DNA of 53,654 bases from an uncultured SAR86 cluster bacterium (lineage in GTDB: Bacteria > Pseudomonadota > Gammaproteobacteria > Magnimaribacterales > Magnimaribacteraceae): the NCBI GenBank assembly GCA_902532675.1, contig CACAIY010000008.1, positions 1 to 53,654 on the forward strand, in the 5' to 3' direction. Positions 45,987 to 49,453 of the stretch are shown one piece after another. Under the pieces are notes generated by a model, which saw only the letters and a list, made by a program, of their open reading frames with translations, did not search any database and was not told the DNA's origin. The translations under genes were made by a program, and so were the position numbers. Each line of letters starts with the position of its first letter. Positions within the stretch are counted from its first letter, which is position 1.

Positions 45987-48089
45987 CTAAAGATTGTATT
46001 GAAGAGATAAGCCAAAGTGTCTGGGATCTCCATGTCTTTCATACAAAGTATTTTCAAAGTTTGGAGGTTCATTGCCAAAATAAAAACCTCTAACTGAATA
46101 ATACCTGTTAAACGCATTGCGCATCCATAGAGAAACTTCCAATTGATCAAGCTGATATCCTAAACTTAAATTGGTTAATGAATATGACCTTGATTTGTTG
46201 TTATGTGAATCAGAATAATAAAAGTTACTTTTTCCTACAGTATCAATTCTTAAGAAAAAGTTTTGGTTTAGATTCCAATTTAAACCTGCAGCATAACTAT
46301 TTCTTGGGGCATGTGCTTGATCTCGACCTTCCAGATCAGGCCTAGACTTCCAGTTTTTAATATCTGTTTCTAATAAACCAATTCTTGTGTAAATATTTAG
46401 AGAATCATTAATTTCATAATCAACATTTAGCTCAAATCCATAATTAACTCCTTCGGCTGCATTCTTCGTCAAGTAAGAAAAAGTATTTGGGTCTGAAGGG
46501 TCTACCTGAGTTGAGATAAGAACCTGTTGATCTTCTCTGTCAGAATAAAACAAAACTGCAGAAAGACGAATCCTGGAATCAAGACTTTTAGTATTTAGCC
46601 CTACTTCGTAATTTAAAAGGTATTCAGGGTTGTAAATTATATTTGCGTTAGATGAACCTAATCCTAGTCCTAGATTAAAGCCACCCTGTTTATAGCCTTT
46701 AGCAATACTGGCAAATAAATTAGAGTTTTCTGTATTCTTGATTAAAGAAATCTTTCCTCCATTCATCGTATTTGAAGGTCTAAATTCTTCTTCAAAGGTA
46801 TCGTTATAATTTGCTTTCCAATCTTCTCTTCTAAGCCCTAAAGATAATTGGAGAGTATCTGTAAAAGAATAATCTAAACTTCCGAATAGAGAGACATTCT
46901 TAGATTGATAATAACTTGAAGAGGAAGATTGGCTAAAATAAGGCCCAAAAGGGTCACTGGGGTCGCCATAATTACCATCATCTTCCTTAAAATTAGTTTC
47001 CTTTATCTCAGAATAACTAATTCCTAATACCCATTGAATTTTTTTATTGGCCGCTTTCAGGTTCTCATTGGATAATAGTCTAAATTCTTGTGATTTAGTT
47101 TCCCGATTTCTGATCGTCTGAGAGAAATAATCATATACGTACGGATGCCAAGATTCTGCATTTCCCCAGTCCGCATCATAACTAAAAGTTACATCGGTAT
47201 TAGTTGAGCTAGTCAAACTTTGAAAATTGAAATCATCAAGCTTACTAAAAATGTTTAATCCAAATGAATTGGTCTTTTGTGAATCCATGCCAGGTCTATC
47301 AGAAAGAGTATTTAAACTTCCATCAAGAGTCCATATATCGGCTGGATCATTTAAATTAACCCTAGAAAACAATAATTTAACTGAAGTCTTATTGTCTACT
47401 TCCCAATTAACCTTCAATCTACTTGTTAGCTCATCCTTTCTTGAAGTATCAGATTTATTTAGATAAATATTTTTTCTAAAACCATCCTCTTCATGTTTAT
47501 GAAGAGCCAATCTGTAAGTAATATCATCACTAATTTGTAGAGGCCCGCCAACAGCAAGGCCTATACTCTTTCTTCCGTATGAACCTAAAACAACCCTTCC
47601 TGTAGATTCAAATTCTTTTGTGGGACCTTTAGTTCTAATATAAATCAGACCAGCTAGAGCGTTAGCTCCTATTCTAGAGCCTTGTGGACCTCTATGAATT
47701 TCAACTTGATCTAAATCAAAAGTAGTTGCTATTCCTCCTTGACCTGAATAATCAATGTCGTCAATTAAAAAACCGACAGATGAATTAGGCGTACCTTGAT
47801 ATCCTGACCTCTCTCCTATCCCTCTAATTTGAAAATATCGCGCCCTTGAGTCACTTGCTGCAAAATTTAAATTTGGTACGAGATAAGAAAGTTCCTCAAA
47901 GTGATTGACCGCCTGATTATCAATTTCTTTCGAGCCTAATAAAACAATACTTGCATCGTTCTTATCTGGGGATATTTCCTTCCAGTCCCCTAGAACAACT
48001 ATCTCTTCGACACTAGCTAAAATAAAATTGCTACTGAAGAGACAAAGAAAAAAATATATTAAGAATGAAACTTTGCTTAGATTAATCAT
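45987..48089 (-). CDS. TonB-dependent outer-membrane receptor, probably for thiamin
   Basis: A 700 aa TonB-dependent transporter. The signal peptide covers about residues 1-25 (ending ILA), followed by a TonB-box-like EEIVVLG. The plug domain contains RYFQIRGIGERSGYQG and DQVEIHRGPQGSRIGANALAGLI. A 22-strand barrel follows, ending in an aromatic-rich terminus. The TPP riboswitch directly before the ATG indicates that expression falls when thiamin diphosphate is plentiful, so the ligand is probably thiamin or a thiamin precursor. The PnuC-family transporter follows after 11 nt, giving an outer plus inner membrane uptake pair. Confidence 0.9.
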   Translation of the reverse strand: MINLSKVSFLIYFFLCLFSSNFILASVEEIVVLGDWKEISPDKNDASIVLLGSKEIDNQAVNHFEELSYLVPNLNFAASDSRARYFQIRGIGERSGYQGTPNSSVGFLIDDIDYSGQGGIATTFDLDQVEIHRGPQGSRIGANALAGLIYIRTKGPTKEFESTGRVVLGSYGRKSIGLAVGGPLQISDDITYRLALHKHEEDGFRKNIYLNKSDTSRKDELTSRLKVNWEVDNKTSVKLLFSRVNLNDPADIWTLDGSLNTLSDRPGMDSQKTNSFGLNIFSKLDDFNFQSLTSSTNTDVTFSYDADWGNAESWHPYVYDYFSQTIRNRETKSQEFRLLSNENLKAANKKIQWVLGISYSEIKETNFKEDDGNYGDPSDPFGPYFSQSSSSSYYQSKNVSLFGSLDYSFTDTLQLSLGLRREDWKANYNDTFEEEFRPSNTMNGGKISLIKNTENSNLFASIAKGYKQGGFNLGLGLGSSNANIIYNPEYLLNYEVGLNTKSLDSRIRLSAVLFYSDREDQQVLISTQVDPSDPNTFSYLTKNAAEGVNYGFELNVDYEINDSLNIYTRIGLLETDIKNWKSRPDLEGRDQAHAPRNSYAAGLNWNLNQNFFLRIDTVGKSNFYYSDSHNNKSRSYSLTNLSLGYQLDQLEVSLWMRNAFNRYYSVRGFYFGNEPPNFENTLYERHGDPRHFGLSLQYNL

Positions 48090-48172
48090 GTAATTCCTCC
48101 GCCATTATTAAATGGATCAGGTTCAAAGGGTTTCTTCTCAGATCTCAGGCTTAAGCCGCCCCTTCACATATT
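48090..48172 (-). ncRNA. TPP riboswitch (THI element), minimal, overlapping the Shine-Dalgarno sequence
   Basis: On the minus strand the conserved TPP aptamer parts occur in order: GGGGCGGC (48155-48162), a very short P3 (GGC-TTAA-GCC), TGAGA, ACCC, GAACCTGAT, a P5 hairpin CCATT-TAAT-AATGG, and GCGGAGGAA. The last element replaces the usual GCGNAGGGA and contains GGAGG (48096-48100), which lies 6 nt before the receptor ATG and is the only ribosome site. P1 can pair ATGTGA (48164-48169) with TTACAT (48088-48093), whose last two bases are the A and U of the AUG. Ligand-stabilised folding would thus hide the ribosome site and start codon. Confidence 0.9.
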
Positions 48173-48177
48173 AGTCA

Positions 48178-48205
48178 ATCTTATCTTCTTAATTGAAAAA
48201 GTCTA
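48178..48205 (-). promoter_or_regulatory. Promoter of the riboswitch-receptor operon
   Basis: Minus-strand TAGACT (48200-48205), 16 nt spacer, TAAGAT (48178-48183). Transcription would begin near 48171, immediately at the 5' strand of the riboswitch P1 stem, so the leader consists almost wholly of the aptamer. Confidence 0.5.
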
Positions 48206-48235: not shown

Positions 48236-49453
48236 TTATTTTAAAGAATCGTATTTTGAAAGCTCTTCTTTCGCTATGGTTCTTAAGTGAACTTCATCCG
48301 GACCATCGCCTATTCTTAAAAATCTGATAGAGCTATAAAGTCCGGCCAAAGGGGTATCTTGAGAAACGCCCGCCCCTCCATGTATCTGTACAGCCCTTTC
48401 TATAACTCTTACAGCCATACTAGGCACTTCAACCTTAGGTTGAGCTATCTCACTTTTTGCTTTTTTATTTCCTTGAGTATCCATCATGTAAGCTGCCTTT
48501 AATGTTAGAAGCCTACACATTTCTATCTCTATTCTACACTTAGCAATAACATCATAATTCCCTCCTAATTCAGCTATTGCTTTTCCAAAAGCTACTCTAG
48601 TTGATGCCCTTTCACATAATAATTTAAGTGCTGTCTCTGCTGCACCTATAATCTTCATGCAATGATGTATCCTGCCAGGCCCTAGACGACCTTGAGCTAT
48701 CTCAAAACCTCTCCCCTCACCTAAAATCATATTCTCTTTCGGTACTCGAACATTTTCAAAGATTAAATGAGCGTGGCCGCTTGGTGCGTGATCAGCACCA
48801 TAAACAGTTAACATTCTTTTAAGCTTTATTCCCTCAGTGTCTCGAGGAACAATTATCTGAGATTGCCTTTGATGCTTCGGTGCATCCGGATTTGAAACTC
48901 CCATAAATATCATAAAACCACAATCGGGTCTTCCATAACCGGAGGTCCACCATTTTTCTCCATTAATAACGTACTCATCACCATCAGCAACAATAGTGCT
49001 TGATATATTTGTTGCATCTGAAGAGGCTACATTAGGCTCTGTCATTGCAAATGCTGATCTCATGGTCCCATCTAGTAAAGGCTTTAGCCATTTCTCTTTT
49101 TGTTGTTCTGTTCCGTATTTATCTAATACCTCCATATTGCCGGCATCAGGAGCAGAAGAATTAAACACTTCAGAAGTCCAGCCAACTCCCATCATCTCAG
49201 CAAGAGGTGCGAACTCTAAATTAGTTAAACCGTATCCGAGATTGCCTGTTAAAGAAAAATTCCAAAGACCTGCGTCTTTGGCCTTATGTTTTAATTCATA
49301 AAGCACCTCAGGGACACGCCATGGGTCACCCTCAGCCCTAAAAGCTTCCATTTCTTCTGTATACCTTTTTTCAGATGGTCTTATATTTGTATTTATAAAA
49401 TCTGAAACTAGTGCCATTAAATCCTTGGTCTTTTTTGTATGTTCAAAATCCAT
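48236..49453 (-). CDS. Acyl-CoA dehydrogenase, ACAD10/ACAD11 (LvaC-like) type
   Basis: A 405 aa FAD dehydrogenase. [46 protein letters not shown] and the C-terminal [11 protein letters not shown] closely follow the dehydrogenase half of ACAD10/ACAD11. The catalytic-base position is Asp383 (DGP) instead of the usual Glu. In mammals and in P. putida LvaC this subfamily acts on 4-phosphorylated acyl-CoAs made by a partner APH-type kinase. Here the gene stands alone, but such a kinase occurs at 33222-34241. An AGGAAA ribosome site precedes the ATG. Use in ordinary branched-chain or long-chain beta-oxidation remains possible. Confidence 0.88.

Follow-up and report, generated by a model that had tools for sequence, protein, structure and literature searches.

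The window analysed here, a 53,654-nucleotide stretch of DNA, comes from a SAR86 bacterium; relatives of the protein encoded downstream of the element described below were found in named SAR86 cluster genomes at 87–89% and 73% identity. Searching the whole window against Rfam returned one match, a full-length TPP aptamer located between an acyl-CoA dehydrogenase gene (48236–49453) and the gene for a TonB-dependent receptor (45987–48089). The aptamer sits 5′ of thiamin-related genes, namely the receptor gene and then a PnuC-type gene that begins 11 nt past the receptor stop codon. The window copy is also the single RF00059 match in the 1.34 Mb assembly, which is 82% complete. Coordinates of the individual features are provided in Table 1.

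Table 1 Features of the riboswitch locus in the window.
Feature	Position	Strand	Basis
Weak −35-like TAGACT	48205–48200	−	Sequence
−10-like box TAAGAT	48178–48183	−	Positional conservation in SAR86 copies
TPP riboswitch aptamer	48077–48173	−	Full-length RF00059 match, cmscan
P1 5′ strand UGUGA	48164–48168	−	Rfam alignment; compensatory change across SAR86
P2 5′ strand GGGG, partner CCCU (48130–48127)	48159–48162	−	Rfam alignment
P3 GGC-UUAA-GCC, 3 bp	48148–48157	−	Sequence and Rfam alignment
Conserved CUGAGA	48143–48148	−	Rfam alignment
P4 5′ strand CCU, partner AGG (48098–48096) of the Shine-Dalgarno sequence	48119–48121	−	Rfam alignment
Shine-Dalgarno GGAGG within the aptamer	48096–48100	−	Sequence; same motif in SAR86 copies
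P1 3′ strand UUACA, final base is the A of AUG	48089–48093	−	Rfam alignment; register conserved
AUG start codon of the receptor gene	48087–48089	−	ORF 45987–48089; 6 nt 3′ of GGAGG
TonB-dependent receptor, 700 aa, thiamin-receptor type (omr1/OMthi-like)	45987–48089	−	PF00593 1e-33, PF07715 9e-11; TPP riboswitch in 19 of 20 non-SAR86 homologues
PnuC/PnuT-type inner-membrane transporter, 178 aa	45439–45975	−	PF04973 6e-48, TIGR01528

A preliminary description of this DNA had proposed a TPP riboswitch that a covariance search with the RF00059 model should recover on the minus strand. The search (cmscan) gave a significant full-length match from 48173 to 48077 on that strand, covering model positions 1–105 at 65.8 bits (gathering score 54.3; E 9e-11). 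These bounds replace the earlier ones of 48088–48205, since 48174–48205 is promoter-side DNA. All conserved elements were indeed present in about 80 nt as had been stated: the motifs CUGAGA, GAACCUGAU and GCGnAGG were read together with P1–P5, the core of the window copy measures 80 nt from P1 to P1, and P3 consists of three base pairs with a UUAA (TTAA) loop. CUGAGA is the pyrimidine-binding element of the TPP family, and the GCG of GCGnAGG lines the pyrophosphate pocket in solved TPP aptamers. The label "minimal" was not sustained. At 97 nt, the hit is of ordinary length compared with 110 other gammaproteobacterial hits (median 99.5 nt, 40 of them 97 nt or shorter), which speaks against miniaturisation of the aptamer. 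P3 itself varies among SAR86 copies, being capped by a UUCG tetraloop (GGC-UUCG-GCC) at locus L010 and its relatives and nearly gone (GG-AAAAAG-CC) at L027.

The 3′ strand of the aptamer supplies the Shine-Dalgarno sequence of the receptor gene, as previously noted, in the form of GGAGG (48100–48096) placed 6 nt before the AUG. This sequence is part of the family's GCGnAGG, with its first G coming from GCG and its AGG contributing to P4. P1 can be extended in the window by pairing A48169 with U48088 of the AUG, and G48087 could form a wobble pair with U48170.

The element was detected in 108 of 203 SAR86-order genomes, and above the gathering score in 100 of the 203; many of these genomes are partial and the copies are related, so that counts do not represent independent events except where a tree was used. 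Copies were read at 107 SAR86 loci belonging to three families. The layout leaves no room for a separate sequestering helix, in agreement with the earlier proposal, and was kept in all 107 copies: the start codon follows the aptamer AGG by 1–9 nt (+6 in 79 copies, +8 in 26, +1 in one and +9 in one), and the Shine-Dalgarno sequence is GGAGG in 106 and GAAGG in one. P1 was paired in 97% of cells, compared with 21–43% when the 3′ strand was slid by 1–2 bases, and the number of paired cells (521) was above the maximum obtained upon partner shuffling (508). Both C-G and U-A occur at the third P1 pair, which switches between them in a repeated compensatory change. On the receptor-protein tree, 8 changes were needed on each side of this pair, and of the 6 independent contrasts available on supported branches, 5 showed co-change and none the opposite (sign test p = 0.06, a value limited by the six contrasts available).

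Pairing of P1 with both the A and the U of the AUG, another element of the preliminary description, applies to the window but only in part to SAR86 as a whole. Pairing of the next base outward, which is the U of the AUG in +6 copies, is possible in only about half of the copies (52%); the A is therefore the more constant base, and conservation does not extend to pairing of the U. Where the start codon is at +8 (26 copies), the five P1 pairs end just short of the AUG. In a few copies, e.g. L012 and L025, P1 pairing is imperfect or the start codon is displaced. At L012 the start codon is 1 nt past the AGG and P1 is imperfect; the true start there may differ.

No full sigma-70 promoter was found in the window by consensus scan, and the predicted promoter is weak by consensus; conservation of the −10-like box across copies was informative instead. 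Among the 99 distinct SAR86 copies used for this count, 98 contain a TANNNT box 6–13 nt 5′ of P1, compared with 36% of shuffles and 20–53% in neighbouring bins. The TAAGAT box of the window places the predicted transcription start near 48171, which leaves about 3 nt ahead of P1 and puts the start at the edge of the helix. Since the box occupies this position in 98 of the 99 copies, the SAR86 leader probably consists of hardly anything but the aptamer and would measure about 82 nt from the predicted transcription start. No intrinsic terminator was found in this leader.

Folding modelled from the predicted start in the absence of ligand gave a mean P1 probability of 0.22 and a partly formed P4 (0.59). 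Upon addition of a 9 kcal/mol aptamer bonus as a stand-in for the ligand, the P1 probability was 0.92, a rise that is guaranteed by a bonus of our own choosing. Mean computed accessibility of the Shine-Dalgarno sequence and AUG over SAR86 hardly changed with the bonus. In such a model any effect would therefore have to come from P1/P4 stability and tertiary structure, and secondary structure alone is no proof of a switch.

It is very likely that a genuine TPP riboswitch in SAR86 controls how vitamin B1, or one of its vitamers, is taken up, and that it does so by direct translation attenuation, in which the ribosome site is buried in the aptamer core and the start codon lies within 15 nt of the aptamer end (Barrick & Breaker 2007, PMC2258182). 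In the window the AUG overlaps P1, and the start codon is at +1 to +9 across SAR86; GGAGG lies in the conserved core and overlaps P4; and there is no separate expression platform, neither a terminator nor conserved extra pairing having been found. In the proposed mechanism, transcription would begin at the P1 edge and yield a leader that is approximately the aptamer alone. Without TPP, P1 is computed to be mostly open, and the 30S subunit could take GGAGG and the AUG, rivalled only by the short P4. Binding of TPP would lock P4/P5 and P1, so that GGAGG would be held in P4 and the ligand pocket while the spacer and the A of the AUG (in the window also the U) would be held in P1. Initiation on the receptor mRNA would be blocked in this state, i.e. 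folding of the aptamer probably blocks receptor translation directly, and the PnuC gene 11 nt downstream would probably be shut down as well via translational coupling.

TPP could instead have the mRNA as its main target, through Rho-dependent termination or through decay once translation has ceased, and not initiation itself. The translational TPP riboswitch of E. coli tbpA also lowers the mRNA level (PMC11487190), and a loss of mRNA would be compatible with an initiation block as its consequence. The SAR86 leader is without a terminator, however, and the strictly conserved Shine-Dalgarno sequence and start codon within the aptamer point to initiation as the primary target, which makes a primary action on the mRNA rather unlikely. 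It appears quite improbable that the on and off states are set by an alternative helix, built from sequence 5′ of P1 or from the first codons, with the aptamer not acting as the sole switch. Single-sequence folds do give lower-energy alternatives, such as a helix upstream of and flanking P1 in the window or the pairing of GGAGGAAUU with upstream AAUUCUU at L010. Upstream pairing to the Shine-Dalgarno sequence or to codons 2–8, however, did not exceed the level of shuffled sequences (p ≤ 0.05 at 7% and 5% of loci), the SAR86 consensus fold is empty outside the aptamer, and only about 3 nt remain 5′ of P1 from the predicted start; an upstream anti-Shine-Dalgarno helix and a P1 extension into the coding region were seen in single folds only and were not conserved. 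A relic aptamer that has lost its regulation and retains GGAGG only as a Shine-Dalgarno sequence is scarcely credible: translation alone would conserve GGAGG and its spacing, but P1 covaries, the ligand-pocket motifs are intact, the position at the promoter is conserved in three families, and scores above gathering were obtained in 100 of 203 SAR86-order genomes.

The SAR86 layout can be set against the arrangement in relatives of the receptor gene. Outside SAR86, a search at E ≤ 1e-60 identified 20 receptor homologues, 19 of which are directly preceded by a TPP riboswitch. The likely start codon lies about 49–99 nt or more past the aptamer in 18 of these 19 (start calls are unsure for L230 and L232). 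A separate platform is thus the rule outside SAR86, in line with the earlier premise that Gram-negative TPP riboswitches usually use a separate sequestering helix. The one direct homologue has its start codon at +5. On the receptor tree the SAR86 sequences group together as a single clade (support 100); two changes are required for the direct state, one origin also being possible. Since a separate platform of at least about 49 nt is retained in 18 of 19 riboswitch-bearing relatives, the SAR86 arrangement is most simply read as a shortened form derived in SAR86. Both the spread of this switch type among SAR86 bacteria and its descent from a longer design have good support.

Among other gammaproteobacterial TPP loci, the direct arrangement was read in about 8 of 110, a rough fraction because high-scoring hits were over-represented in the sample and start-codon calling was automatic; the remainder have longer leaders. 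The proteins downstream of these roughly 8 direct loci are, as judged by eye, mostly transporter-like (PnuC-like, ABC ATPase, the same receptor). In several non-SAR86 riboswitches (among L228, L231, L234, L235, L236 and L245), the core is followed closely on its 3′ side by GGGACAGG; a CCTGTCC-like stretch comes 35–60 nt later in several of these, which resembles a classical separate platform.

The short layout had been suggested to fit a streamlined genome, which holds only in part. Every small SAR86 genome with the element has the shortened form, but the direct homologue is encoded in a 4.7 Mb genome and contradicts streamlining as a requirement, although on the tree it may be a separate gain; other direct TPP riboswitches occur in genomes of 1.3–4.7 Mb. 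A further reading, which we regard as evenly balanced, is that the SAR86 riboswitch is platform-free, with transcription starting at P1, the start codon closing P1 and the whole leader serving as sensor, and that it arose by loss of the platform kept in homologous genes. If true, this loss would provide a natural before-and-after pair for dispensing with an expression platform.

The genome of the window contains ThiL (TMP kinase) above the cut-off (G000:C26:11300-12214) and gave no ThiC, TPK or ThiE match. In the 40 SAR86 genomes that are at least 90% complete, the riboswitch was present in 18, which gave no convincing ThiE/TenI-family hit, and a strong hit to this family was obtained in the other 22; the two were never found together. 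The exclusion also holds within one genus, g22 (G182 and G191 versus G190 and G195). Genome G009 combines the riboswitch with a ThiE fragment containing three stops, as if ThiE had been lost recently. No thiamin pyrophosphokinase (TPK) was found in the 41 SAR86 genomes searched, including the 40 near-complete ones. With ThiL present and no ThiE, ThiC or TPK hit, the cell would either import TMP or form it with a separate thiamin kinase. Because the riboswitch and a ThiE-type gene exclude each other, the receptor locus would fit the role of the cell's B1 supply in auxotrophic lineages, and it marks SAR86 genomes that appear dependent on imported vitamin B1.

Several known systems resemble this locus. 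The mechanism class itself is already known: direct translation attenuation was predicted in a survey that found it mostly in Actinobacteria and Cyanobacteria and that refers to a previous comparative study of TPP; according to it, the ribosome site of TPP riboswitches is replaced by their purine-rich 3′ region (PMC2258182). The SAR86 riboswitch likewise has its ribosome site in the conserved core, uses the purine-rich 3′ part as Shine-Dalgarno sequence and has its start codon within 15 nt. It differs from the cases of that survey in that the layout is universal among the copies read, the AUG often falls within P1 and a separate platform persists in relatives of the gene; SAR86 is an unusually uniform case with a clear contrast to its relatives. 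Relative to the TPP riboswitch (THI element) family RF00059, the match is full-length with all conserved elements and a thiamin-transport gene downstream; nothing in the aptamer core is different, and the P3 of the window copy is short. The E. coli tbpA and thiC TPP riboswitches are off-switches on translation initiation, as is proposed for SAR86, but they use an anti-P1 helix that resides in a separate expression platform (PMC11487190). Bacteroidetes OMthi-pnuT-tnr3 operons, in a different phylum, have the same order of TPP riboswitch, TonB-dependent thiamin receptor and PnuT, with the regulatory level called uncertain (PMC5613172). In 'Ca. Pelagibacter ubique', a transporter gene is preceded by an intergenic region of 108 nt that contains a TPP riboswitch (PMC2704228), which suggests to us a similar arrangement in that species. 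Within SAR86, omr1 with a nearby TDP riboswitch was reported in two clusters in 2024, and SAR86 members were cited as B1 auxotrophs (PMC10881298); this outer-membrane receptor with its riboswitch is probably the same locus type, and that paper's passages on omr1 give no regulatory architecture. Added in the present analysis are the layout shared across SAR86, the compensatory change in P1, a leader that is approximately the aptamer, the shortened form relative to homologues and the mutual exclusion of riboswitch and ThiE. One gene family thus includes a classical TPP riboswitch with its own platform and, in an abundant uncultured ocean lineage, a form whose aptamer seems to be the entire switch; this contrast makes the question of platform loss directly testable.
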